Source: Citrobacter sp. MGH106
GTDB taxonomy: Bacteria; Pseudomonadota; Gammaproteobacteria; Enterobacterales; Enterobacteriaceae
DNA: 64,000 nucleotides
Direction: 5' to 3'
NCBI RefSeq assembly: GCF_001037495.1
Contig: NZ_KQ089822.1
Span: 1,860,001 to 1,924,000, forward strand
Positions 10,195 to 30,411 of this stretch are shown in pieces (the first letter of the stretch is position 1; every line of letters starts with the position of its first letter). The notes beneath the pieces were generated by a model. That model saw nothing but the letters and a program-made list of their open reading frames with translations. It was not told the origin of the DNA and did not search any database. Made by a program: the position numbers and the translations under genes.

Positions 10195-11202
10195 CTATTT
10201 GGTCGTTCTGGATATCAGGAACAAGAAGACAGGGACGCCTAAAAGCGCGGTTAAGATCCCCACGGGTAATTCACGTGGGGCAAGTATCGTGCGTGCCAGT
10301 GTATCGGCCAGTACGGCGAAGATAGCCCCCGACAGTATGGCTGCAGGCAGCAGCGTCCGATGCCGATGGCCGATAAGCATCCGTGCGATATGCGGGACGG
10401 TCAGGCCGATGAACCCGATAGCGCCACAGCAGGCGACGACAACCCCCGTCAGCAGCGTAAGCAGGCAGAACATTACCAGTTTGATCTGGCCGACTTCCAC
10501 ACCCAGGGATTGCGCGGTAATGCTCCCGAAGGTCATAACATCCAGCTCCACAGCGCGCCACCAGCAGAATAGCCCGACAGGCAGCAGCACCAGCGCACAC
10601 AACAGCACCTGCATCCAGCTTGCCTGAGCGAAACTGCCCAGCAGCCAGAACATTACCCCACGGGTGGTATCCGCGTCGGTCTTCCAGAGCGTGATAAGCG
10701 AGGTGAGCGCCGACAGCAGTTGCGTGACGGCCACGCCTGTCAGGATGAAGCGGCTGGAGGAACCGGAAAGGGATTTTCCCGCCATCGACAGCACCAGCAC
10801 AAAGGCCAGCACCGCACCACAAAATGCCCCTGCCGGGACAGCCGCCCAGCCCACACTGAGACCGAGCGCGATAACCAGCACCGCCCCAGCGCCAGCGCCG
10901 GAGGAAATACCCAGCACCCATGGATCAGCCAGTGGGTTGCGCGTCAGCGACTGAAGCACGGTTCCAGCCAGCGCCAGGGATGCGCCTGCCAGCGTGGCCA
11001 GCAGGGCGCGGGGCAATCGCAGCGACCATACAATCCGCTGGTGCAGTGTTCCTTCCGTATCGCTATGCCAGTAACCCGCCATCACGGCGTTCACCACCTC
11101 ATCAAGTGAGAAGGTGACAGGGCCGAATTTAATGGCAACACACAGCACTAGCAGTAACGCTGGCACCAGAATCAAAACACGGATGACGGAGGAACGTAGC
11201 AT
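10195..11202 (-). CDS. FecCD/BtuC-type ABC transporter permease
   Basis: 335-residue inner-membrane permease with about ten hydrophobic helices and the family motifs LRLPRALLATLAGASLALAG and GFIGLTVPHIAR. It would move a metal chelate or similar ligand from its binding protein into the cytoplasm. Last gene of the operon receptor-binding protein-methyltransferase-permease. No ATP-binding subunit gene follows, so it must borrow an ATPase encoded elsewhere or be inactive. Start ATG at 11202 lies 2 bp after the methyltransferase stop. Confidence 0.9.
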   Translation of the reverse strand: MLRSSVIRVLILVPALLLVLCVAIKFGPVTFSLDEVVNAVMAGYWHSDTEGTLHQRIVWSLRLPRALLATLAGASLALAGTVLQSLTRNPLADPWVLGISSGAGAGAVLVIALGLSVGWAAVPAGAFCGAVLAFVLVLSMAGKSLSGSSSRFILTGVAVTQLLSALTSLITLWKTDADTTRGVMFWLLGSFAQASWMQVLLCALVLLPVGLFCWWRAVELDVMTFGSITAQSLGVEVGQIKLVMFCLLTLLTGVVVACCGAIGFIGLTVPHIARMLIGHRHRTLLPAAILSGAIFAVLADTLARTILAPRELPVGILTALLGVPVFLFLISRTTK

Positions 11203-11204
11203 GG

Positions 11205-11954
11205 TTATTTCCAGCCAGCGATAACGTAATCATCCAGGAACTGCCAGACGGTGCCAGTCTCGTCAAAGCCAGCCTGACGCAGCATGGCGAGCTGGAATTC
11301 TATCGGCGTCGGCAACGGCATCGGACGGCCAGCAAAGATAGCGGTACGTTCATCCATTTTTTCGGCAAGTTCAGGGTGGCGGGTTGCTGCTTCAAACCAG
11401 GTATCCCAGTCCTGCGCGCCCGCCGCCCAGCCTTGTTCCTGCGTCAGCTCATCGTGCATTTGCGCCATCAGTTTCTGGCGTGGGTTGCGGTTATCAAAAC
11501 GCTGGTGGTCGGCATTCATGAACAGGCCGCCCTGATCCAGAGAGTGATAGATATTGCGGTAAAGCACAGTCTGCTGTTCCGGTAACAGCCAGTGAATGGC
11601 CGTACTGGATACCATGGCCTGCGGTTTTCCTTCAACGGAATCAAAACAGGTCGGTAGCGCGATATCAGCATGAATGAACTGGATACGGTCTTTGTGCTCG
11701 ATCATGGCTTCTTTTGCCAGGGTCAGCAGCAGTGGATCAAGATCGATGGCCGTCACCCGAGCGTTCGGGAAGCGGTTTAACAGGCGCAGGCTAAAGGAGC
11801 CTGGGCCACAGGCCACATCGACAACGTGAAAATCATCACCAAAGGTCATTGCCAGTACATCGAGAGCGGCGGCGAAACGTTCTTCGCGGTGCGCAATGTA
11901 GGCGTTTTGTTGCTGATCCCAGTTATTCAGTAAATCGCGGGCTGGAAAAGTCAT
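11205..11954 (-). CDS. Class I SAM-dependent methyltransferase
   Basis: 249 residues. Motif I VVDVACGPGSFS (about residues 44-55), motif II acidic end AIDLDPLLL and a following HADIALP give a standard AdoMet-binding Rossmann fold, resembling trans-aconitate-methyltransferase-type small-molecule enzymes. Embedded in a metallophore uptake operon, overlapping the binding-protein gene by 4 bp, so a role in modifying or releasing the imported ligand is plausible. Substrate unknown. Confidence 0.85.
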   Translation of the reverse strand: MTFPARDLLNNWDQQQNAYIAHREERFAAALDVLAMTFGDDFHVVDVACGPGSFSLRLLNRFPNARVTAIDLDPLLLTLAKEAMIEHKDRIQFIHADIALPTCFDSVEGKPQAMVSSTAIHWLLPEQQTVLYRNIYHSLDQGGLFMNADHQRFDNRNPRQKLMAQMHDELTQEQGWAAGAQDWDTWFEAATRHPELAEKMDERTAIFAGRPMPLPTPIEFQLAMLRQAGFDETGTVWQFLDDYVIAGWK

Positions 11955-12904
11955 TGTGGTTCCTTGGTAAAAGACTGCATTTGCGTGACAAGTCGATGCA
12001 AGGCCAGTACAGAACGCGCAGAAGCGTCCATGTCGTAGCCTGGCAAGATGATGTAGTGCCTTGCTTTGACGGCTTTCATGCTGGCCGTAAGCGGGTTGTG
12101 CTCCAGAAACTCAATTTTGCTTTTGGCGCTGTCACCTGGGCCGCCACGGTTTAAGTCGCCCAGCACCAGAAAATCAGGATCGAGAACCGCTATTACTTCC
12201 CAGTTCATCGCGGGCCACAGCTCACGATAACCATCAAAGATGTTTTTACTGCCAATGGTCTGCGTAAGCAGCTCGGATGCACCGTAACCGCCTGCCACAT
12301 AAGGCGTGGCGGTATTGGAGTACCACCACATCAGTGTTTTGGGCGGGAGCTTCACGCGAGTATCGGCAGCTACCTGCGCTTTCAGCCTGGTTATCAGAGC
12401 GTCAGCGCGGGGGGCAACGTCATAGATACGGGCGAGATTGCGCAGCTCATCGTAAATCCCCTCGAAGGTGACGGGGGCAGGGGTTGCACCTTGCTGCCCG
12501 TTGCACATGCTTTCGATAAGCCAGCTCCCGATTCGCCATTCCTCCAGGCGTTCGCGGTTAGCGGTTTCAGGGCTGTTAAACCAGTAATAGCTCCCTGAGT
12601 AGATAAAGTCCGGCCGGGAGGCTAACAGCGCCTCGCCAGACCAGGCCGCGTCATCGAGCTGGGCTTTTAGTGGAGCAGCCCAGGGCGACGGCGCGGTATC
12701 TTCATCTGGCCGATACCCCACCGCGCTGATGATGGAATCCCCCAGATGCAGAGCGAGCATGTTTTCTATCGCGGTCGGCATGTAGGCGATAGCCCGTTTC
12801 GGTGGGTGTGCGAACGTCCAGCGCTTGCCGCAGTTTTCAAGCGTTACCGGATGGGCAAAGCTGTTGCAAGCAACCAGAAGCGGAAGAATGGCGAGACGAA
12901 GCAT
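11951..12904 (-). CDS. Periplasmic metallophore-binding protein (FepB/BtuF family)
   Basis: 317 residues with an N-terminal signal (about 1-17, ends SFA). The start of the mature protein (HPVTLENCGKRWTF) and the PPKRAIAYMPTAIENMLALHLGD block are typical of helical-backbone binding proteins for siderophores and cobalamin. It would collect the ligand brought in by the TonB-dependent receptor and pass it to the permease. The start codon overlaps the receptor stop (TGATG). Ligand not deducible. Confidence 0.88.
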   Translation of the reverse strand: MLRLAILPLLVACNSFAHPVTLENCGKRWTFAHPPKRAIAYMPTAIENMLALHLGDSIISAVGYRPDEDTAPSPWAAPLKAQLDDAAWSGEALLASRPDFIYSGSYYWFNSPETANRERLEEWRIGSWLIESMCNGQQGATPAPVTFEGIYDELRNLARIYDVAPRADALITRLKAQVAADTRVKLPPKTLMWWYSNTATPYVAGGYGASELLTQTIGSKNIFDGYRELWPAMNWEVIAVLDPDFLVLGDLNRGGPGDSAKSKIEFLEHNPLTASMKAVKARHYIILPGYDMDASARSVLALHRLVTQMQSFTKEPQ

Positions 12905-15006
12905 CAGAACTTCATGTTCACGTAGGCTTCATAGGTACGGCCTGGTGCGATCATTTCCTGGCCTGCGTAGGTGCGCTGCCAGGTGTAGAAGCGATCGGTC
13001 AGGTTGCGCACGCGGGTGCCCACCACAACATCTTTCACCAGCTCGTAATCAGCGCCCAGATCAACGGTGGTGTAATCACTCATCTTGTTGGTGTTCGCAT
13101 CATCGTTGTAGCTGCTGCCCACGTAGTGGAGTTGCGCGTCTAAGCCCAGTTTCTCGGTCGGCATGTAGCGCCCAAACAGGTTGGCCGTCCATTCCGGTAC
13201 GTAGCGCGGCTGGTTGCCAGACAGGTCTTTAGTGCCTTGCTTGAACTCATCAAAGCGGGCGTGGGTGTACGCCACATTACCGGCAAGCGTGACGCTATCA
13301 ACTGGCTTCATTGCGCCGCTTAACTCAACACCGCGTGAAGTCTGTTTGCCGACCGCGTTCCATACTCCTGCTTGCGTAGCAGATTGCTGGTAGAGGTTGG
13401 TTTTCTGGAGATCGTAAACGGACAGTTTCATTTCGCCGCGTTTATCCCAGAAAGCACCCTTCACGCCTGCTTCATACTGGCGAACATCGGTGAGCGGCAG
13501 GGATGTCTGTTCCGGGCTGATAAAGAAGATATCGCTGCCAGGTTCTTTCCCGGTGGAGTAGTTTGTGTACACCGTCCAGTCATCGTTGATAGCCCAGCTC
13601 GGGCCCACGCCCACACTCATGAAATTATAACCACGGTCGATGACTTTCCCCGCCTGCTGGTAGTTCCAGTGCATATCCATATTGGTGTAGCGGAGCTGGG
13701 TAAGCAGGGCGACGGAATCCGTTACGTTAAGGTTGTCTTCCAGCAACAGGGCGTACTGGTTCTGGATAATGTGACGAACTGGGGCGCGCATCTTGCCACC
13801 CGCGCCAGCGCGGAAGGTGTTAGAGGCCGGGTTAGTCAGGGATACATCTTCACCACCAGGGAAGCCGTTCGAGTAATACTGGAATTCACGCTTGCTGAAG
13901 TCCACGCCTGCGGTCACACGGTTATCCATGGAGGCGATGGAGTGATCCCAGGTCACCATGGTGCGGTTGCCCGCCAGCTTGTCATCGTGCGCGATTGCGC
14001 CGTAGGAATCGCGGGTGGTGGTGCCTGCTGCCTGCGTCTTCGACTGGAAATAGCGCTCGGCGTTCTGCCACTCGCGGAAGCCTTTGTAATAGTAAAACTG
14101 GTTATCAAAGGTTAGGTCTTCCGTGGCGCGCCAGGTCTGGGTGGACTGGATAGAGTTGGCCTGGCTGCGGATGAATGCGTCCTGAATGTTGTTGTAGTTC
14201 ACATGGCGCAAGCCTTTATCGATTTTGCCATCAATTACCGGCGTACCAAAATACGGGTTGTGCTGGTCGGTCAGGCTGCGGTCAAGATCAAGCGTAACCT
14301 CGGTGGTGTCGGTCGGGGTCAGCAGCAGGTTGGCCGTCACGCGTTCTGGACGGCTGCGTTCTTTTTCGACCTGAGTTCCGGTATTGGATGCGCTCACATC
14401 CACACGGCCAGCGGCCAGACCGTCTACCAGAGTACCGCCTGCGCCTACATGGGCGCGATGGCTGTTATGGCTGGAATAGCCATAATCCACTTCAACAGGC
14501 TGCGGTATGAAGGAGGCCTTGCGGGAAACCAGGTTTACGCTGCCGCCTGCATTACTAAGCCCGTTCAGCACAGAACCCGTGCCGTAGAGGATATCGACGT
14601 TTTCATAGTGCGCCGGATCGGCAATCTGGATGGTACTGCCTGGAACGGCTACGCCATTCAGCAGCCAGGACACACCGGAGAAACCGCGCAGGGATACCGA
14701 GTTAGACAGAGTAGGGGAACTGGTGCCCGACAGACCTGGCGCTGTTTCCACCACTTCAGTCAGGGTGCGTTTGCCTTTCTTCTTCAGGGTTTCTTGGCTG
14801 ATGGTTTCCGTATGGCGTGGCGTCTGTTTGTCGGTTAAACCCAGACGGGAGCCGGAGCCTACGGCAAGCAGTTTAGAATCCGTCTGCTCGGAAAAACTGC
14901 TGCCATTGCTGGTGGCCGTAACCACCAGTGTTTCTTCAGCGGCATGAGCGAAGGATGAAAGACTGGCAAAAACGCTAAGTGCGATAAGGGAGGGTGTAAA
15001 TTTCAT
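12904..15006 (-). CDS. TonB-dependent outer-membrane receptor
   Basis: 700-residue receptor. Signal peptide residues 1-22 (ends AHA), TonB box EETLVVTA right after it, plug domain with the LTEVVETAPGLSG and VDILYGTGSVLNG motifs, and a barrel ending in a phenylalanine (AYVNMKF) as required for outer-membrane insertion. Family members take up ferric siderophores, zinc or other chelates. First gene of the operon, with a possible Zur box 21-39 bp upstream of the start. No internal damage seen. Confidence 0.95.
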   Translation of the reverse strand: MKFTPSLIALSVFASLSSFAHAAEETLVVTATSNGSSFSEQTDSKLLAVGSGSRLGLTDKQTPRHTETISQETLKKKGKRTLTEVVETAPGLSGTSSPTLSNSVSLRGFSGVSWLLNGVAVPGSTIQIADPAHYENVDILYGTGSVLNGLSNAGGSVNLVSRKASFIPQPVEVDYGYSSHNSHRAHVGAGGTLVDGLAAGRVDVSASNTGTQVEKERSRPERVTANLLLTPTDTTEVTLDLDRSLTDQHNPYFGTPVIDGKIDKGLRHVNYNNIQDAFIRSQANSIQSTQTWRATEDLTFDNQFYYYKGFREWQNAERYFQSKTQAAGTTTRDSYGAIAHDDKLAGNRTMVTWDHSIASMDNRVTAGVDFSKREFQYYSNGFPGGEDVSLTNPASNTFRAGAGGKMRAPVRHIIQNQYALLLEDNLNVTDSVALLTQLRYTNMDMHWNYQQAGKVIDRGYNFMSVGVGPSWAINDDWTVYTNYSTGKEPGSDIFFISPEQTSLPLTDVRQYEAGVKGAFWDKRGEMKLSVYDLQKTNLYQQSATQAGVWNAVGKQTSRGVELSGAMKPVDSVTLAGNVAYTHARFDEFKQGTKDLSGNQPRYVPEWTANLFGRYMPTEKLGLDAQLHYVGSSYNDDANTNKMSDYTTVDLGADYELVKDVVVGTRVRNLTDRFYTWQRTYAGQEMIAPGRTYEAYVNMKF

Positions 15007-19918: not shown

Positions 19919-20642
19919 CTACTCGAATCCTGCTACCCCTTTGCCCAGCTTATCAGCCCATTCCTGCATCATAACCTTTCACTCATCGAGATAAGTTACA
20001 TGGTTGTATGTGCGACGAACATTGTTGGTATCAGCGAACGCAAGTTGGACCTCTATAGCGTCGGGTTGATAGCCCATCTCGTTTAAACGTGTTCTTCCTG
20101 TAGTTCTGGTATATAGGTACCACTCCAGCCGAGGCTTTTAAGTAGCCGACACAGAGAGTGCGATGTCATTGGACTTAGCTGATTATCCCTGCCCGGAAAA
20201 AGGTGCTGCCGATGCCCGGTTAATCCCTGTAGTGTTCTGAGCTTTTTGACATCTTGGGAGGGCAGGGGAATACCGTGTTCTCTACAAACTTTCATTCGCG
20301 CTGCCGGAATGGTCCACAGGGCGCTATCAAGATCGATTCTGCCCATTCTGCTTCGGTAACTTCAGCGGGACGCGCAAGTGTCCACCACATTAACCACATG
20401 CAATAGTTAACCTGGTACGAGCCATGACTATTGTCAAAACAACTCAATAATCTCCCGATTTGCTGTGGGTTTAATGCCTGTTTGTGTTTTATTAGCAGGA
20501 AGGGGCTTGCGCGCAGGCCAGACGGGATCGCTATCAGCTCCAGGCGTCGCGACTGCCAACTCGAAAATTGATGAAACGGTGCGGCGAGCTTCCGCAGCAA
20601 CTGTCGGGGCTCCCCGTTTAGCTGTTTCCTGAAGAATTTCAA
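19919..20642 (-). pseudogene. P4-type tyrosine integrase, truncated and frameshifted
   Basis: Catalytic half of a P4-like integrase spread over at least three frames. 20642-20292 covers the core start (LNPQQIGRLLSCFD, TLARPAEVTEAEW); 20346-20083 continues with LWTIPAARMKVCREHGIPLP and TGHRQHLFPG; then LNEMGYQPDAIEVQLA and NVRRTYNHVTYLDE carry the active-site tyrosine, followed by an in-frame TGA and EWADKLGKGVAGFE. About 170 N-terminal residues are missing on the side facing the att-like repeat. Dead, so the island is probably fixed. Confidence 0.85.
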
Positions 20643-23205: not shown

Positions 23206-24015
23206 TTAGTTCGCCTTGTTTCTGCGCGAGCGGGAACGGATACGCTGTAATAACGCGACTAGCGCCAAAACAACCGCCAGATATCCCATAGCATACATTC
23301 CCTGATGCTTTCTCGACTCCAGCTGCGGATCGGCTACCCACGCCAGAAATGCGGTGACATCGCGTGCGTACTGTTCTTCCGTTTGGGGTATGTGTGTTTG
23401 CGTAGCCCAGATTACCTCACCGTCTGTCAGTGGTTTTGGCATATTGATAATCCCGCCCGGGAAATACCGGTTAGCCTTCATCTCAGGATCATCGGGAACA
23501 TACCCCGTCAGCAATGCATAAATATAATCAGCCCCTTGTTCGGAATAAGGAATAAACGCATCCAGTAAAAATTGTGGAAATCCGCGATCGTAGGTTCGTG
23601 CCCGAACGATATAGCTCAAATCTACCGGCAGCGCGCCATTGTTGAGGTATTTGGCTTCCTGCTCATTGAGATAAGGGGAAGCAAAGACATCATTCAGATT
23701 GCCATCCCGTTCGCCGGGTTGCCCGTCGTCCTCCACGGTTGCAAAGACGTAACCGCTCGCCATTGTTTTAGCTTCAGCCTGACTCAGCTCCGGCCCTCCC
23801 GGTTTGGTCAGCGTTCGGAACGTCAGATATTTCATGCTGTGGCAGGCCCGACATTTTTCTTCGTAAACCTGCAGACCGCGTCGTAACTGCTCTGTGTCGT
23901 ATTTGCCGTTCGCACCGCTAAAAGACCACGTCTGCGGTGGCGGTTGCTGCGCACTGAGTACGTTGCTGAAGAACAGACCCAGACTGAGGGTGGTGTACGT
24001 TAAAAATCGGCCCAT
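23206..24015 (-). CDS. petC: Cytochrome c1 of a bc1 complex
   Basis: Membrane-anchored c-type cytochrome that takes electrons from the Rieske protein. Start chosen at MGRFLTY (24015), preceded by AGGAC and followed by a signal peptide (ends SAQ around residue 22); the longer frame to 24060 overlaps cytochrome b. Heme motif C55-R-A-C58-H59, then the family regions SMKYLTF and FPGGIINMPKPL with a candidate distal Met. One C-terminal helix (about 240-258) anchors it. 269 residues. Third bc1 gene, 4 bp after petB. Confidence 0.93.
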   Translation of the reverse strand: MGRFLTYTTLSLGLFFSNVLSAQQPPPQTWSFSGANGKYDTEQLRRGLQVYEEKCRACHSMKYLTFRTLTKPGGPELSQAEAKTMASGYVFATVEDDGQPGERDGNLNDVFASPYLNEQEAKYLNNGALPVDLSYIVRARTYDRGFPQFLLDAFIPYSEQGADYIYALLTGYVPDDPEMKANRYFPGGIINMPKPLTDGEVIWATQTHIPQTEEQYARDVTAFLAWVADPQLESRKHQGMYAMGYLAVVLALVALLQRIRSRSRRNKAN

Positions 24016-24019
24016 AATG

Positions 24020-25192
24020 TCAGTCCTGTTTTTCCAGTAAGCGTCGACACGGCAGAACAATCAGAAACCATGCGAAATAGACCAGCGTTGAAAGCTGAGA
24101 TGCTGCACGGATCCAGCCCTCGTCATGATTAAACCCATCAACTAAATCCGGACCAACCAGCGCTTTTGATCCCAGCCAGCCTAAAAAGAAGGCGTTGACT
24201 ACCCAAATCCAGAAGCTGACTTTAACCAGCTTGCTATAGTTGCGAAACCGCGCACGTGACGTATCCAGCCAGGGGAGAAAATAGAAAATCAGTACCGAGG
24301 CGCACATCGCAGTAATACCCGCCAGCTCATTGGGAAAGCAGCGCAAAATAGAGAAGAAGGGCAGAAAGTACCATTCCGGTGCGACGATGGCCGGCGTGAC
24401 TGTCGGATCGGCGGGAATAAAGTTATCGGCGCTGCTGAGATAATGGGGCGCGAAGAAGAGAAACCAGGTAAACAACATTAAAAAGAGAGTGAGTTTAATG
24501 GCATCGCTCTCGGTGACGCGAAAATCAAACAGCAGCCGTTGAGACTCTTGTGCGGAAAATGTTTTCTTCATCGCATGGGCAAAAGCCGACTGAACGGTGC
24601 GTACATGCCATATCGTCACCGCGACAATCGCGAATGGAATAATAAAGTGAAGCACATAAAAACGCCCAATTGTTGGTGTACCGGGCGCATATCCACCGAC
24701 TAAATAGGTATACAGCGAATCCCCGATAAACGGAATTGCCCGGGCAAAACTGGTAATAACCGTGGCGGCCCAGTAGCTTTTTTGCCCCCAAATAAGGCTA
24801 TAGCCCAGAAAAGCAGTGATCATCAGCAGCACATATAACGTCACGCTGATGGTCCACATCTTCAGATAGGGTTTGCGGTAAACGTTGTAATACATCGCGC
24901 GGAAAATATGCAAATAACAGGCAAAGAAAAAGAGTGAAGCGCCAGTTGCATGCATGTTGCGCACCAGTTCACCGTGCCTGACTGAACGCATAATATGAAT
25001 AATGGAATCAAATGCGGACTCCGCCGTAGGTACGTAGAACATTGCCAGTACAATGCCCGACAGGATTTGGACACCCAGCATCACTAGTAATATCAAACCG
25101 ATAGCAAATACCCACAGCCCGGAAACGGAGCGGGGAAGCGGAAGGCGCAACTGAAAGTTGCGCCATGACGTCGTTATATCAGAAGTGCTCAT
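24020..25192 (-). CDS. petB: Cytochrome b of a bc1 complex
   Basis: Membrane core of quinol:cytochrome c oxidoreductase. I start at MSTSD (25192), directly after the Rieske stop. Heme ligands H81/H95 and H182/H196 keep the 14-residue spacing of bc1 complexes. The Qo-site motif PEWY is at 273-276 and GQKSYWAATVIT matches the cd-helix region. About eight membrane helices, full-length at 390 residues (fused form, not b6 plus subunit IV). All catalytic features are intact. Confidence 0.95.
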   Translation of the reverse strand: MSTSDITTSWRNFQLRLPLPRSVSGLWVFAIGLILLVMLGVQILSGIVLAMFYVPTAESAFDSIIHIMRSVRHGELVRNMHATGASLFFFACYLHIFRAMYYNVYRKPYLKMWTISVTLYVLLMITAFLGYSLIWGQKSYWAATVITSFARAIPFIGDSLYTYLVGGYAPGTPTIGRFYVLHFIIPFAIVAVTIWHVRTVQSAFAHAMKKTFSAQESQRLLFDFRVTESDAIKLTLFLMLFTWFLFFAPHYLSSADNFIPADPTVTPAIVAPEWYFLPFFSILRCFPNELAGITAMCASVLIFYFLPWLDTSRARFRNYSKLVKVSFWIWVVNAFFLGWLGSKALVGPDLVDGFNHDEGWIRAASQLSTLVYFAWFLIVLPCRRLLEKQD

Positions 25193-25193
25193 A

Positions 25194-25745
25194 TCAGGCA
25201 TCCTTTGCACCAATACGTACGCTCAGACCATCGGCAGACAAGGTATAGTCCGGGATTGCCAGATTCGCAGTGGCCGGACCGCGCGTCACACGTCCGGAGG
25301 TATCAAACTCTGAACCATGACACGGACAGATCCATCCCTGGCCACTGGGGTTGGCGTTAGGAACACACCCCGCGTGAGGGCAATAGCCCTGTATAACCAG
25401 CCACTGTGGATGTGCCGCTGTAACCCGTTCGCTATCTGCCTGAGGAGCCAGCAGTAATCGATTATCTGCCTGTTGCGCCGCTGCAATCTCTTGCGGAGTT
25501 CGGTGGTGAATGAGGATCAGTTTTCCCTGCCAGATACGCTTCACTGTCTGGCCTGCTGCTACGCCTGCAAGAGAGACATCAATTGGCTCATTTTCTGCCT
25601 CGGTTTTATCATCCGGGCCCAGTGCTGAGATGAGCGGCCAGACGGCGGCAGTGACACCCGCCGCGCCGACAAATTTTGTCAGTTTGCACAGGCAGTCACG
25701 TCGCCCGGTCTGGATCGTTTCACTATCGGGTTTTTTATCCACCAC
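25194..25745 (-). CDS. petA: Rieske iron-sulfur protein of a bc1 complex
   Basis: 183 residues from a GTG at 25745 (RBS gggag). N-terminal twin-arginine-type sequence GRRDCLCKL and a hydrophobic anchor (about 22-42). Cluster ligands C122, H124, C140 and H143, with C127 and C142 for the disulfide. The first box reads CPHAGC instead of the usual CTHLGC, a mild variation. Order Rieske-b-c1 is the standard petABC/fbcFBC order. Confidence 0.95.
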   Translation of the reverse strand: MVDKKPDSETIQTGRRDCLCKLTKFVGAAGVTAAVWPLISALGPDDKTEAENEPIDVSLAGVAAGQTVKRIWQGKLILIHHRTPQEIAAAQQADNRLLLAPQADSERVTAAHPQWLVIQGYCPHAGCVPNANPSGQGWICPCHGSEFDTSGRVTRGPATANLAIPDYTLSADGLSVRIGAKDA

Positions 25746-25769
25746 CAGTATTCTCCCTTTATCGTGGCG

Positions 25770-26210
25770 TTACTGTTTATCGATGCGGGTATAAATATCC
25801 TGAAAGCGTTTATCCGCAAGGCCCGGTGCTTTAAACGCGCGGTAGCTGTCGGGCAATACGGCGTCACCGACTTTGATCAGCATGATCATGCCCTGGGCAT
25901 AGTGGGGTGAGCACTTGATGCCGTAGAAGCCTGCGTTGTCGTATTTGACTTCAATCTCTTCATCGATTTTGCCAATGAAACCGGGATAGCCTGCGGGTGA
26001 GAGTTCGGCAATCGAGGCTGCATTGTGGCTCTTATGTTTGCGGATAAACTTCACGCTATCGCCCGGTTGGATCGCCAGATAGTCCGGCTCGTAGACCATT
26101 GGCCCACCAGCACCTCGGTTTTTCATCAGCACTTCATGCGTTTGTGCGAGAGCCGTGGAGGTGAAGGCTAACAGGCACAGGATTTGCAGACTTTGCTTAA
26201 TACATTTCAT
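25770..26210 (-). CDS. Pseudoazurin (type 1 copper protein)
   Basis: 146 residues with a signal peptide (ends ALA at 22). Copper ligands H62, C100, H103 and M108 in the pattern KSHNAAS ... KCSPHYAQGM match pseudoazurins, which shuttle electrons in the periplasm, typically to copper nitrite reductase or nitrous oxide reductase. Lies 17 bp after the ABC ATPase and 24 bp before the Rieske gene, so probably the electron acceptor of the encoded bc1 complex. The terminal acceptor is not in this window. Confidence 0.92.
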   Translation of the reverse strand: MKCIKQSLQILCLLAFTSTALAQTHEVLMKNRGAGGPMVYEPDYLAIQPGDSVKFIRKHKSHNAASIAELSPAGYPGFIGKIDEEIEVKYDNAGFYGIKCSPHYAQGMIMLIKVGDAVLPDSYRAFKAPGLADKRFQDIYTRIDKQ

Positions 26211-26227: not shown

Positions 26228-27049
26228 TTACGCTGGTCGTTGGTAGCGGATGAAGCAGCTCGCCCCATCAGGTGGACGTTCGACAATTGCATCGATGCCA
26301 AACCAGCAGTTAAGGTTTTCTCGGGTGAACACTGCAGAAGGATTGCCCTGCATCGCCAGTTGTCCGGCTTTCATCACCATGATGCGATCGCAGAACATTG
26401 CGGCATGATTCAGGTCGTGCAGGGCAGCAATAACGGTAAGTTTCTCGCGTTTGACAAGGTTGAGCAGGCCAATCTGATGTTGGATATCGAGATGATTTGT
26501 CGGCTCATCCATCAGCAGTACCTGCGGTTGTTGCGCCAACGCCCTGGCTATATGCAGGCGCTGGCGTTCGCCCCCGGAGAATGTATGCCAGCAGCGATGC
26601 TGTACGTTTTGCATGGAGACTTTTTCCAGCATCGCTTGCACAATCTCATCGTCAGAACGCGACCATGGCGACAACAGGCTTAGAAATGGTGTGCGGCCAA
26701 GAGAAACGGCCTGAATGGCGGTAAGACGCTCGCTGGTTTCTGCCTGTTGTTCAACAAGAGCCACTTTTTGCGCCAAATGGCGCCGCGAATAGCGGTGAAC
26801 GTCTTTGTTGTTCAGCAAAACCTTGCCTGCGGAGGGTTTCAGTAAACCGGCCAGAAGCGAAATCAGTGATGTTTTCCCGGAACCATTGGGGCCGATAATC
26901 CCAACAAACTCCCCGGGAGAAACCTGAAAAGAGACATCATTTACAATTGCCTTGCCTTTCACTTCCCAGTGCAGATTTTGCGCGCAAACCACATGATTAG
27001 CCGCATTCGCTCTGCGTAGAGGTGATGTAAAGCATGGGTTAACGGTCAT
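26228..27049 (-). CDS. ABC transporter ATP-binding protein (FepC/BtuD type)
   Basis: 273 residues. Walker A GPNGSGKT at 53-60, signature SGGERQR around 158, Walker B VLLMDEP and switch His in ALHDLNHAA. Energises the adjacent FecCD permease; its start overlaps the permease stop by 4 bp. It could in principle also serve the ATPase-less permease of the island at 10.2-11.2 kb. Confidence 0.93.
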   Translation of the reverse strand: MTVNPCFTSPLRRANAANHVVCAQNLHWEVKGKAIVNDVSFQVSPGEFVGIIGPNGSGKTSLISLLAGLLKPSAGKVLLNNKDVHRYSRRHLAQKVALVEQQAETSERLTAIQAVSLGRTPFLSLLSPWSRSDDEIVQAMLEKVSMQNVQHRCWHTFSGGERQRLHIARALAQQPQVLLMDEPTNHLDIQHQIGLLNLVKREKLTVIAALHDLNHAAMFCDRIMVMKAGQLAMQGNPSAVFTRENLNCWFGIDAIVERPPDGASCFIRYQRPA

Positions 27050-28110
27050 TTGCTCGGATTCCCTCGTATCAATATGAGTGAAAATGCGGGAGCGCCGACC
27101 AGGGCGGTGATCACGCCGATTGGCAACACTTGCCCTGGAAGCAGGGTTCGGGAGATGACATCCGCCACGATGAGAAAAATAGCGCCAATAAAGGCGCTTA
27201 CGGGCAATAAGCGGTGATGCTGGTTTCCCACCAGTAAACGGGCGGCATGAGGAATGACCAGCCCGACAAAACCAATAGCGCCTACAATCGATACCATAAT
27301 GGCCGTCATTCCCGTCACTGCGGTAATCAGTACGACGCGGGTGCGTTTAACCGGAATACCCAGCGATGCGGCCGATTCAGCGCCAAAGGAAAATGCATCA
27401 AGATGGCGGGCGTAGCAAAAGCAGATAATTATGCCGACCAGCGCAGTTGGGATAGCCAGAACCACATCTGGCCAGCGAACGCCGCTAAGGTTGCCCAGTA
27501 GCCAGAACATAATGCCGCGAGCCTGCTCGGCATTGGCTGAGCGGGTGATAATCAGTGAAGTGATGGCATTGAACAACTGTGAGCTGGCAATCCCGGCGAG
27601 AATGATTTGCGTGGTGGCGGAACCGTGTTTTCCCCGCGCAGCCATCGCCAGCAGTGCGACAAACAAAAACGCCGTCAAGGCGCCGATAAAGGCGCCGAGA
27701 GACATGCTGACGATCCCTGCACCCAGTCCGGTTAATGCAATGAGCACGGCTCCGGTTGACGCTCCGGCGGAAATCCCCAGCAGATAGGGTTCGGCCAGCG
27801 CATTACGTAGCAGTGACTGTAACACTACCCCGGAAACCGCCAGACATGCGCCGCAACAGGCGGAAACCAGCGCGCGAGTCAGACGGTAGTTCCAGATAAT
27901 CCCGGCATCCAACGCGTCCACCATATACTGGGTGTCAAACAGTCGGTTTGCCAGCGTATGGATAACGTGCTGCCACGGAATAAATGTTTCACCGATGGAG
28001 ATCCCTGCCAGAAGAACGCCACACATCACCACACTGACCCACAGGCTGTGTAGCACTGCCCGGTTTGTTAATTGACGAATGGCCTGGCGCGTCCTGCGTA
28101 ATTCACTCAT
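27046..28110 (-). CDS. FecCD/BtuC-type ABC permease
   Basis: Start taken at MSELRRTRQ (28110), since the longer frame runs into the upstream hairpin. About 354 residues, ten helices, with GFVGLVIPHAAR and LRNALAEPYLLGISAGAS motifs of the BtuC/FepD family. RBS is weak; expression may depend on read-through from the binding-protein gene. Ligand: a corrinoid is suggested by the riboswitch, otherwise a siderophore. Confidence 0.92.
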   Translation of the reverse strand: MSELRRTRQAIRQLTNRAVLHSLWVSVVMCGVLLAGISIGETFIPWQHVIHTLANRLFDTQYMVDALDAGIIWNYRLTRALVSACCGACLAVSGVVLQSLLRNALAEPYLLGISAGASTGAVLIALTGLGAGIVSMSLGAFIGALTAFLFVALLAMAARGKHGSATTQIILAGIASSQLFNAITSLIITRSANAEQARGIMFWLLGNLSGVRWPDVVLAIPTALVGIIICFCYARHLDAFSFGAESAASLGIPVKRTRVVLITAVTGMTAIMVSIVGAIGFVGLVIPHAARLLVGNQHHRLLPVSAFIGAIFLIVADVISRTLLPGQVLPIGVITALVGAPAFSLILIRGNPSK

Positions 28111-28139
28111 TATTTTACGGCTGCCCTGAGTACAAAAGG

Positions 28140-28166
28140 GCGTTATGCCTGCAAAAGGCATAACGC
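28140..28166 (-). terminator. Intercistronic hairpin after the binding-protein gene
   Basis: Perfect 10-bp stem gcgttatgcc / ggcataacgc with a 7-nt loop and a short following T stretch. Likely a weak terminator or mRNA stabiliser that gives more binding protein than permease, as seen in many ABC operons. Confidence 0.65.
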
Positions 28167-28176
28167 GCGACGAGGA

Positions 28177-29229
28177 TTAATGAGTGGCTTTTGGATGTGC
28201 CAGGCCGTACTGCACCAGCGCATCAGCGAGTTTCTCAAGACCATCGATAGTTCTTATCCCGGCATTCATGGTTTGCACGTCGATCACTGGCAGGTGGTTT
28301 TCTTTAACCGCCGGGATCAGGCTGGTGACAGGATCAGACTTGAGGTATTCCATTTTGACTTTCCAGTCATCAGCTGGGAAACGGCGACGTCCCATTTCGC
28401 CCAGAACGATAACCGATGGATCCGCTTTGGCGATGGTCTCCCAGCCTACAGTTGGCCACTCTTCGGCGGAATCAATGACGTTTTTCACCCCAAGTGATTG
28501 GGCGATCCACGCGGCGGGGCCAAATTTTCCTGCGACATACGGGTCAAGTTGCAGATCGGCGCTGGAGAACCAAAAGACGGCGGAAACGTTGTTGTCCATA
28601 CCGGTAATTTTGGACTTTGCCGCAGCCTCACGTGCTTTGAGGCTGGCAATCAGTTCATCACCTTTGTCCTGAACATCGAAAATTTTTGCCAGATCTGCGA
28701 CTTCCTGGTAAACCATGGCGATATCAAACATCCCCTTACGTACACCATCTCCGCCGTCTTCGTTATCTTTGGCACAATCGGCGGGAGCGGTATAAACCGG
28801 AACTTTCAATTCGCTGAATTGTTCGTAGGACGCGACCGTACCGGCAGGGCCAATTTGCCATTCAAACTGGCTGGCTACTAAATCTGGCTTTTTAGCAATA
28901 ATCCCTTCAAAGCTCGGGATGTTCTGTGCAATGACCGCAATTTTATCATTCACCGCCTTGTACTGTTCCGGGACGGGACCGAACCAGAGTGACGTTCCGA
29001 CAACGCGATCGGCCAGACCCAGAGAATAGAGTATTTCAGTGCTATTTTGCCCTACGGTGGTAACTCGCTGGGGAGCTTTATTAAAAGTAATATCCCGGCC
29101 ACAGTTTTTGATAGTCAGTGGATATTCTGTTTTGGCCGCAGAAGCCATATTACTGGCCAGGAAAAGTGCGGCGCCAGTCAAGGCCAGAAGTGAAAGTTTG
29201 GAATAAGAAGAGGTAATGTCAACGTGCAT
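28177..29229 (-). CDS. Periplasmic binding protein (BtuF/FepB family)
   Basis: 350 residues starting MHVDITSSY at 29229, chosen because AAAGGGA lies 9 bp upstream; an alternative ATG is at 29247. Signal peptide ends ASA near residue 31. Mature start (YPLTIKNCGRDITFNKAPQRVTTVGQ) and a C-terminal lobe separated by a long helix are typical of the family. First gene behind a cobalamin riboswitch. Confidence 0.92.
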   Translation of the reverse strand: MHVDITSSYSKLSLLALTGAALFLASNMASAAKTEYPLTIKNCGRDITFNKAPQRVTTVGQNSTEILYSLGLADRVVGTSLWFGPVPEQYKAVNDKIAVIAQNIPSFEGIIAKKPDLVASQFEWQIGPAGTVASYEQFSELKVPVYTAPADCAKDNEDGGDGVRKGMFDIAMVYQEVADLAKIFDVQDKGDELIASLKAREAAAKSKITGMDNNVSAVFWFSSADLQLDPYVAGKFGPAAWIAQSLGVKNVIDSAEEWPTVGWETIAKADPSVIVLGEMGRRRFPADDWKVKMEYLKSDPVTSLIPAVKENHLPVIDVQTMNAGIRTIDGLEKLADALVQYGLAHPKATH

Positions 29230-29434
29230 TATAATTGTCCCTTTCATGCCAGAATCTGATCGTCTGGTATATAATTTCGGGACAGGCGCATGACGATAGA
29301 TGACATCGAATCATGATGTACAGACAAGATAATATGAAAAAAAAGTATATTCTCGTCTACCAGGTCAGTAATCACGATCATTAGTTCGTCAAATAAATCA
29401 CCCCATGGACCATCCCGTCCACTCAATGTATACA

Positions 29435-29610
29435 ACCTTGACAGTAGGTCTCCTGGCTCGCGGCAATCAGAATATCGGCCTTCCCATAAATAAATCTTTA
29501 CAGTGACCTATGGTGATTTATTACCATACGAAGATATTCTGTATCCGCTTACAGTTGCGGGGGCAGCTATGGCATAAGATTGAAATAATCCGCACCATAT
29601 TCCGTTTCAA
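29435..29610 (-). ncRNA. Cobalamin riboswitch
   Basis: On the minus strand the conserved blocks appear in order: GGTGCGG, then GCTGCCCCCGCAACTGTAA (29549-29567), CACTG, GGGAAGGC, and the B12 box GAGCCAGGAGACCTAC (29445-29459). The GATACAGAATATC and GATATTCTG arms can pair. This matches the btuB-type aptamer layout. It ends about 200 bp before the binding-protein ATG, leaving space for an expression platform. It normally turns expression down when adenosylcobalamin is plentiful. Confidence 0.9.
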
Positions 29611-29886
29611 AATAATAAGTACATTCTGAAATACTGTCATCGGCGAATGTATCGGCATCCAATTATCGCGTCAACCGCTTGAATAAGTAGGGGTATTTGT
29701 TTTGCTATTGTTAATTCCTTTAAAAACAGATGGTTATGAGAATATTTTTTAGTGTGTTCTATGTTGATGGTGAATATCAGATAAATTAAATGAGAATTAT
29801 TTGATTCTGATCAATTAATTTTGCTGCGATAAAAATGACCGGAATTAATAGTGCGGATGCACAATTATTTAATTATTTGCACAATG
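29611..29886. other. AT-rich promoter region upstream of the riboswitch
   Basis: About 275 bp with no gene; must hold the promoter of the riboswitch operon unless it is read through from the acetyltransferase gene. No clear operator found. Confidence 0.45.
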
Positions 29887-30411
29887 TCACATTCCGATAG
29901 CATATTTCTCCATATGCACAATTTGTTGTTCTCCGCCTTCATCTAAAAACTCGGTGAAATGATGGCGTAGCCAAAACGGATAACCGCCAGGTAAAAAGTG
30001 ATGGGTGTGCAGGTAGAGTGTTTTATATTGTTGACGCAGGCAAAATTGTTCTGCCAATGAAACTAACTGACCGCCTATTCCCTGGCGACGATAATTTTGT
30101 TCAACGTAACAACGACAAATCTCAGCGGTTGTAGATAAATTATAACGCCCACGTAATGTCGATATTCTGTCATCGTACTGGCATACCGCCAGCGTGGCGA
30201 TAAGCTGTTGTTGTTCATCCCATACGCCGATCAACAGATTTCGTGGCTGGTGAATGTATTGTGAACGTAACGCTAACACATCCTGACTTGAGTCGGGGAG
30301 TGGCCTGTTGGCATTAAAATAGAGATTCAGATGCCGGATAATAAACGATTGCACGGCTGGAATATCAGTCTCGGTGATTTCGCGATAGACAAATGTAGAG
30401 TCAGATTTCAT
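29887..30411 (-). CDS. GNAT-family N-acetyltransferase
   Basis: 174 residues. The acetyl-CoA-binding motif A QNYRRQGIGGQLVSLAEQF (about 109-127) and preceding beta strand AEICRCYV mark a GNAT fold. Substrate unknown. Lies between dauA and the riboswitch operon, same strand as both; likely part of the inserted segment. Confidence 0.85.
   Translation of the reverse strand: MKSDSTFVYREITETDIPAVQSFIIRHLNLYFNANRPLPDSSQDVLALRSQYIHQPRNLLIGVWDEQQQLIATLAVCQYDDRISTLRGRYNLSTTAEICRCYVEQNYRRQGIGGQLVSLAEQFCLRQQYKTLYLHTHHFLPGGYPFWLRHHFTEFLDEGGEQQIVHMEKYAIGM

Follow-up and report, generated by a model that had tools for sequence, protein, structure and literature searches.

The window analyzed here, a stretch of 64,000 nucleotides from Citrobacter sp. 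MGH106, carries on its minus strand the genes for a complete cytochrome bc1 complex and a pseudoazurin-like copper protein, which lie in a seven-gene operon that begins with an ATP-binding cassette (ABC) importer and is headed by a cobalamin (vitamin B12) riboswitch. The features of the locus, with their family matches, are as follows.

23206-24015, minus strand: cytochrome c1 of the bc1 complex (PF02167, Cytochrom_C1, 1.4e-69), with the heme motif CRACH
24020-25192, minus strand: cytochrome b of the bc1 complex (PF00033, 8.3e-52, and the C-terminal domain PF00032, 2.2e-28)
25194-25745, minus strand: Rieske iron-sulfur subunit of the bc1 complex (Pfam Rieske, 4.4e-10; TIGR01416, Rieske_proteo, 148.4 bits, above cut-off)
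25770-26210, minus strand: pseudoazurin-like type 1 copper protein with a signal-like N-terminus (PF00127, Copper-bind, 1e-12)
26228-27049, minus strand: ATPase of an ABC importer (PF00005, 3.5e-38)
27046-28161, minus strand: FecCD/BtuC-type permease (PF01032, 4.8e-89)
28177-29247 (start perhaps at 29229), minus strand: class III substrate-binding protein (PF01497, 4.9e-31)
29426-29653, minus strand: cobalamin riboswitch aptamer, the operon leader (RF00174, 83.5 bits, E 7e-21)
29887-30411, minus strand: GNAT acetyltransferase, a possible companion gene upstream of the riboswitch (PF00583, 3.8e-12)

Read from 5′ to 3′, the operon encodes the binding protein, permease, ATPase, pseudoazurin, Rieske protein, cytochrome b, and cytochrome c1, with intergenic spacing ranging from a 4-bp overlap to a 24-bp gap: the permease gene follows the binding-protein gene after 15 bp and is itself overlapped by the ATPase gene by 4 bp, the pseudoazurin gene follows 17 bp after the ATPase gene, and gaps of 1 to 24 bp separate the four genes of the bc1-pseudoazurin part. 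All seven genes occur in the same order in each of the 13 other enteric loci read (L012-L021, L069, L077, and L080; L078 and L079, taken as repeats of L020 and L019, were left out of the scans). Because of this tight spacing and conservation, the seven genes are probably read as a single transcript. A sequence-only reading of the window had described a tight operon of four genes encoding a complete bc1 complex and pseudoazurin; those genes are borne out by their open frames, Pfam matches, and intact heme, iron-sulfur, and copper ligands, but the extent given was too short, with the three importer genes upstream to 29247 and the riboswitch having been missed. The operon and its regulation, as read here, are very probably correct.

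The redox proteins retain the residues needed to bind their cofactors. Cytochrome b has the heme ligands His81, His95, His182, and His196 and a PEWY motif at 272, the Rieske protein has both cluster motifs (CPHAGC and CPCHGS), and the copper ligands of pseudoazurin (His62, Cys100, His103, and Met108) are invariant in all 12 of the enteric copies aligned. All three bc1 subunits are thus recognizable by Pfam match and by ligands, with the Rieske protein alone passing an NCBIfam cut-off: the cytochrome b models all stay below theirs, and cytochrome c1 is matched by no model. The pseudoazurin scores 104.2 bits, slightly below its NCBIfam cut-off of 109.85 (a Shinella relative encoded beside a similar importer scores 140.3, above it), and solved pseudoazurins are the top profile matches of the operon protein, the best at 9.5e-29.

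Cytochrome b differs from its outgroups at the quinol-oxidizing (Qo) site. In the Qo-site helix, at about residues 133-146, all 12 enteric rows read LI/V-WGQKSYWAAT, as against LP-W/Y-G-Q/N-M/L-S-x-WGA in 10 outgroup rows; the changes of P to I/V, M/L to K, and G to A are thus present in every enteric row and in none of the 10 outgroup rows. This pattern fits a changed quinol site. The alanine is one that we take to correspond to G143A of fungal cytochrome b, a substitution conferring insensitivity to strobilurin-type inhibitors, and an inhibitor test of this bc1 complex could therefore give a false negative.

The aptamer heading the operon scores well above the gathering score of 31.5 bits for its family. 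It is one of three cobalamin riboswitches found in a search of the genome, the second of which precedes a cbiA-type gene (for cobyrinic acid a,c-diamide synthase, scoring above cut-off) and the third btuB (776.8 bits against a cut-off of 836, the gene being truncated where the locus ends). A riboswitch also lies upstream of the operon in all 13 of the other enteric loci scanned, and was detected in none of 12 control enteric importers whose binding proteins are 40-48% identical to that of the operon, about 1.5 kb upstream of each having been scanned. From the riboswitch family, repression of the operon by B12 is predicted. The leader, together with the importer encoded by the first three genes, points to acquisition of B12 or cobalt. 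As to the acetyltransferase gene, a homologue adjoins the operon in 11 of the 13 other enteric loci (L020 and L021 being without it), and a weak relative (31-33% identity) adjoins the importer in Comamonas and Diaphorobacter.

Related importers outside the enterics show which of these associations extend beyond the bc1 genes. In 15 of 15 non-enteric loci on alpha- and betaproteobacterial plasmids (L105-L110, L153, L154, L187-L189, L191, L192, L194, and L195), the importer is encoded with a riboswitch before the binding protein, and the proteins of these units are 45-69% identical to those of the window. These loci were taken from the best hits when plasmids were searched with the binding protein and the pseudoazurin, and they are therefore no random selection; S. 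fredii, Shinella, Paracoccus, and S. meliloti each recur or appear together with close relatives. The pseudoazurin gene directly follows the ATPase gene in 12 of the 15. Conversely, the importer is absent beside all 12 unlinked pseudoazurins examined over 16-18 kb (L141-L152), as is the importer ATPase beside all 29 examined over 3.3 kb (L112-L140, including the genes of L141-L152); neither importer nor riboswitch lies near the pseudoazurins of L190 and L193, and no riboswitch was found at those of L141-L145. No cytochrome b match lies beside the importer in any of the 15 non-enteric loci, of which 11-25 kb was read, and four plasmid bc1 neighborhoods contain no close relative of the importer, showing only ATPase matches of 27-28% identity, in two of them. 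Some units have neighbors connected with cobalt or B12: that of Comamonas antarctica adjoins cobW-cobN, and that of Paracoccus yeei adjoins cobO and cobW-cobN, each with a further riboswitch. In a 2024 proteome of S. meliloti (PMC11302038), BtuF and BtuC, possibly the products of the L195 genes, are listed as B12 transport proteins.

The genes downstream of pseudoazurin in these plasmid units vary. In Shinella/Ensifer, an S-adenosylmethionine (SAM) methyltransferase gene comes right after it (L105, 15237-16046; L109, 12408-13214), whose best NCBIfam match, below cut-off, is a corrinoid-protein-associated methyltransferase. In Comamonas and Diaphorobacter, an OprD-type porin follows (L188, 6417-7748; L189, 6456-7796), through which the substrate might cross the outer membrane, and in Thioclava (L187, 6863-12390) a cytochrome bd operon comprising two oxidase subunits, cydD, and cydC.

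By the cut-offs applied, the importer itself is neither EitABC nor BtuCDF. The nearest NCBIfam model for the binding protein is EitA (306.9 bits, cut-off 640) and that for the ATPase is EitC (287.7 bits, cut-off 485), both scores falling below the level needed for assignment to the EitABC siderophore importer. The BtuF, BtuC, and BtuD models were likewise not reached (25.1 bits against 234, 215.3 against 334, and 129.4 against 281, respectively), and the importer was therefore not filed as BtuCDF. A structure model of the binding protein was poor (predicted local distance difference test, pLDDT, 61.5), and a fold search with it indicates a class III binding protein and no more. The window contains a second cluster of this general kind (10195-15006, minus strand), encoding a TonB siderophore-type receptor, a binding protein 31% identical to that of the operon, a SAM methyltransferase, and a FecCD permease; the genome search placed no cobalamin riboswitch there.

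Since a bc1 complex for bulk respiration is not expected behind a B12 switch together with an importer, the simplest account is that pseudoazurin is kept reduced for a task linked to import. The arrangement suggests that the bc1-pseudoazurin chain serves B12 or cobalt uptake and not ordinary respiration, and the following mechanism is proposed. When adenosylcobalamin is scarce, the riboswitch would permit expression of all seven genes. The substrate then taken up by the binding protein, permease, and ATPase would be a corrinoid, whether vitamin B12, some other cobamide, or cobinamide; a different cobalt chelate is less likely. The bc1 complex, as the presumed donor to the operon pseudoazurin, would pass electrons from ubiquinol via cytochrome c1, and the reduced pseudoazurin would convert the cobalt of the incoming compound from Co(III) to Co(II) in the periplasm, thereby loosening tightly held upper ligands and giving the binding protein a uniform form of its substrate. 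The potential of pseudoazurin is about +0.25 V, and those of the Co(III)/Co(II) couples are about +0.2 V for aquocobalamin and about +0.5 V for aquocobinamide; accordingly, pseudoazurin could reduce aquo-corrinoids, though not cyanocobalamin. Alphaproteobacteria commonly possess a general bc1 complex, and the importer and pseudoazurin would suffice where one exists; enterics are without a bc1 complex of their own, and for this reason the enteric version would bring one with it, joined in two Klebsiella loci by cytochrome c maturation (ccm) genes. That bc1 and pseudoazurin supply the redox function of an uptake operon repressed by cobalamin, with the chemistry as proposed, is put forward at slightly below even confidence. 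The wider formulation—that complex III has been turned to nutrient uptake, as a B12-repressed, quinol-driven periplasmic cobalt reductase working with a corrinoid importer, in a transferable enteric module that carries its own bc1 and sometimes ccm—is offered somewhat more tentatively.

A number of points weigh against this proposal. The corrinoid as electron acceptor, and with it the cobalt-reduction step, is a step that we infer, and E. coli BtuCDF functions without such an electron chain. Pseudoazurin is absent from three of the 15 non-enteric units (L107, L153, and L195, the latter two from S. meliloti), so that transport does not strictly require it. The genome encodes a YhjA-like cytochrome c peroxidase (PF03150, one gene, from a family also present in E. 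coli) that could accept the electrons. TonB siderophore-receptor genes lie on both sides of the Diaphorobacter unit. Finally, the binding protein is no clear BtuF: vitamin B12-binding proteins match it at E 0.056 or weaker in a search of PDB sequences, and the 50 fold matches listed, of 981, are siderophore, heme, and unnamed binding proteins, with no vitamin B12-binding protein among them. As neither cut-off, PDB sequence, nor listed folds identify it as BtuF, a cobalt or iron chelate is a possible substrate.

These last observations bear on an explanation in which the operon encodes an importer for a cobalt or iron metallophore, with pseudoazurin reducing an inert Co(III) or Fe(III) chelate to free the metal, much as ferric siderophores are reduced in the periplasm, and the riboswitch gauging cobalt supply. 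The best scores of the binding protein and ATPase against EitA and EitC, the predominance of siderophore and heme proteins among the listed folds, the CobW and CobN neighbors in two loci, and the receptor genes flanking the Diaphorobacter unit all agree with such an importer; however, scores against the named siderophore families fall far short of the cut-offs, and among the genes flanking the operon in the seven enteric loci other than L012-L017, no TonB receptor or metallophore synthesis gene was recognized by eye. We consider this explanation distinctly unlikely. The peroxidase bears on a different possibility, namely that the chain is an electron route switched on by B12 starvation and leading to a separate, unlinked acceptor—such as the YhjA-like peroxidase or an unrecognized periplasmic enzyme—with the riboswitch shared with the importer and the chain playing no role in the chemistry of uptake. 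Cobalamin riboswitches also control replacements of B12-dependent enzymes, nrdAB and metE being among the genes that share such switches, and in Sinorhizobium fredii (L108) frames reading as nrdAB, with their own riboswitch, directly precede the importer. On the other hand, the position of pseudoazurin directly after the ATPase, in the 12 non-enteric units and in all 14 enteric loci (window included), points to a link with the importer as such, the operon was not seen to be accompanied by an acceptor gene, and E. coli YhjA is thought to draw its electrons directly from quinol. A separate acceptor appears unlikely, though it is to be taken seriously.

The sequence-only reading had considered possible a branch of anaerobic respiration through the bc1 complex and pseudoazurin, on the grounds that pseudoazurin is a typical donor to NirK or NosZ and that the Nar nitrate reductase is encoded in the window. 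In Paracoccus, pseudoazurin donates electrons to the reductases of nitrite, nitric oxide, and nitrous oxide, and nitrous oxide reportedly acts via B12 riboswitches there (PMC12848317); in a variant of this idea, damage to B12 by nitrous oxide would open the riboswitch and pseudoazurin would then feed NosZ. The genome searches argue otherwise. NosZ was found in none of the 14 bc1-carrying enteric genomes, whereas three of the 12 genomes used as controls, which came from other classes and had been chosen for having a pseudoazurin, gave a match. The search of the window's genome for NirK (TIGR02376) returned two matches of 25.8 and 20.4 bits against a cut-off of 296.3, with E. coli giving matches too, and that for heme-copper oxidases (PF00115), likewise in this genome, a single gene of CyoB size. 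Beyond the YhjA-like peroxidase, none of the customary acceptors of a bc1-cupredoxin chain, such as a cytochrome c oxidase, was found, the oxidase, peroxidase, and NirK searches having covered the window's genome; no NirK, NosZ, or NorB acceptor was detected, in a search that did not extend to NirS or to c-type cytochromes at large. With NosZ not found and NirK below cut-off, and with a B12 riboswitch and importer in the same unit, the denitrification branch is not supported, and the Nar genes are merely nearby. Furthermore, a tree separates the pseudoazurins of the importer units from almost all of the unlinked ones. To the feeding of nitrite or nitrous oxide reduction, its B12-damage variant included, we attach hardly any credence.

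In that tree (54 rows, without L193, the duplicates L125 and L127, and the repeat rows L111-L121, already present), the 24 unit rows require two label changes, compared with a mean of 17.9 in shuffles; one stray row, L190, falls inside the unit group, and L141 is its unlinked sister. Twelve enteric pseudoazurins form a clade with Sinorhizobium and Shinella unit rows (L105, L106, L108, and L154; support 99/96). In the cytochrome b tree (55 rows), the 11 enteric rows fall into a single clade (100/100), set on a very long branch of 2.0 changes per column and adjoining a group that includes rows from Rhizobium, Pannonibacter, and Nitratireductor at just under full support (94/80), a placement subject to long-branch caution. 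The enteric cytochrome b groups with Hyphomicrobiales, less firmly than the pseudoazurin does with its relatives. Among 398 genomes of the phylum, the best cytochrome b scores are 1.5e-67 in the same order, 1.7e-69 in the same class, and 8.6e-101 in other classes; because other classes give better scores than the enterics' own order or class, vertical descent of the enteric cytochrome b is unlikely.

The distribution of the operon was followed through cytochrome c1, which was detected in 10 of the 17 genomes examined in the genus and in 8 of the 392 in the family; these eight are also the ones that encode a binding protein of at least 76% identity; all remaining binding-protein matches in those 392 genomes have 48% identity or less. 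The named carriers are Citrobacter, Klebsiella spallanzanii, K. indica, Klebsiella sp. BIGb0407, and Intestinirhabdus alba. The E. coli control search for cytochrome c1 was silent, and by megablast none of 5426 E. coli genomes holds 80% of the region. In the window and eight of the 13 other loci (L012-L017, L019, and L077), the operon lies between ychH and dauA, which are separated by 54 bp in E. coli ATCC 8739 and by about 7.4 kb in the window. The earlier statements that E. coli has no bc1 complex and that the operon was gained, rather than being a core trait, agree with these results. At five further loci (L018, L020, L021, L069, and L080) the operon occupies other chromosomal sites, and the cytochrome b of L069, from a genome (G003) of the same genus as the window, groups with three Klebsiella rows (99/89). 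These varied sites and the placement of L069 look like transfer of the operon among enterics. In Intestinirhabdus alba (L019, 4217-7038), the binding-protein gene is in tandem duplicate behind one riboswitch.

In two Klebsiella loci, ccm genes follow cytochrome c1. In K. spallanzanii (L018), these are ccmA, ccmB, ccmC, ccmE, ccmF/nrfE, and dsbE, each above the cut-off of at least one model, and an nrfF/ccmH-like gene below cut-off. In BIGb0407 (L020), ccmB, ccmC, ccmE, ccmF/nrfE, and dsbE match likewise, an nrfF-like gene is again below cut-off, and a frame at 11895-12569 resembles ccmA by eye. K. indica, G003, and G049 showed no such cluster downstream of the operon.

The substitution pattern was examined by comparing the window with the Citrobacter loci L012 and L015 by the Nei-Gojobori method, several comparisons with more distant loci being saturated. 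The ratio of nonsynonymous to synonymous change (dN/dS) is 0.03-0.10 for the seven genes, at dS near 1, and 0.005-0.022 for the flanking genes dauA, pth, and ychF, indicating purifying selection that has kept the seven genes functional, less tightly than the flanking genes. These values touch both sides of a further alternative, in which bc1 was captured behind the importer-pseudoazurin unit as a passenger, driven by the promoter of that unit with no functional tie, and is an ordinary but poorly connected complex. A dN/dS several-fold that of the flanking housekeeping genes would agree with it, as would the long enteric cytochrome b branch, read as relaxed or shifted constraint after capture, and the non-enteric units without bc1 beside the importer. 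Against it, purifying selection acts on the seven genes, which have not been separated in any of the 14 enteric loci, that of the window among them, although these occupy several chromosomal sites; in two Klebsiella loci, ccm genes have been added behind them. This alternative is regarded as very unlikely.

The operon combines known kinds of system, a B12-riboswitch importer and a bc1 chain. With the BtuB-BtuCDF system of enterics it shares a cobalamin riboswitch (that of btuB) and a type II ABC importer with a periplasmic binding protein, but its importer is distant from BtuF, scores below the BtuC and BtuD cut-offs, and is separate from the riboswitch-bearing btuB of the genome; in addition, the operon carries pseudoazurin and bc1. 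The plasmid units of rhizobia, Paracoccus, Thioclava, and Comamonadaceae, annotated as ABC transporters (often "iron"), have the same riboswitch and gene order, but differ in having no bc1 found beside them and sometimes a methyltransferase or OprD porin downstream. EitABC is the best NCBIfam match, below cut-off, of the binding protein and ATPase, and the 12 enteric relatives examined (40-48% identity) are without the riboswitch. The electron carriers are those of denitrifying alphaproteobacterial bc1-pseudoazurin chains, as outlined for Paracoccus (PMC12848317), from which the operon differs in its B12 riboswitch, its altered Qo-site residues, and the lack of any NirK or NosZ acceptor found.

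A metal complex is chemically altered during import in the FpvG-FpvCDEF pyoverdine system, which provides a precedent for the step proposed here. To our knowledge, neither that system nor BtuM uses a bc1 complex or a cupredoxin. BtuM of Thiobacillus denitrificans is a second precedent for chemical change of a metal complex during import (PMC8123684). In the literature searched, judged largely from the openings of abstracts, no paper on the combination of riboswitch, importer, pseudoazurin, and bc1 was recognized.

Complexes of the bc1 type are usually regarded as respiratory or photosynthetic components; here, one lies behind a vitamin riboswitch, in an importer unit, in bacteria whose relatives mostly have none. 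Should the chemistry be demonstrated, complex III would gain a function of a new kind. Redox processing of corrinoids or cobalt chelates in the periplasm would then add a new step to the B12 economy, one that matters for rhizobia and for competition over B12 in the gut, and the association of a cupredoxin with B12-regulated importers in alpha- and betaproteobacteria would be explained.

Elsewhere in the window, two short frames beside ychF (20083-20642, minus strand) appear by eye to be integrase fragments, one of which was tested against Pfam and had no match.

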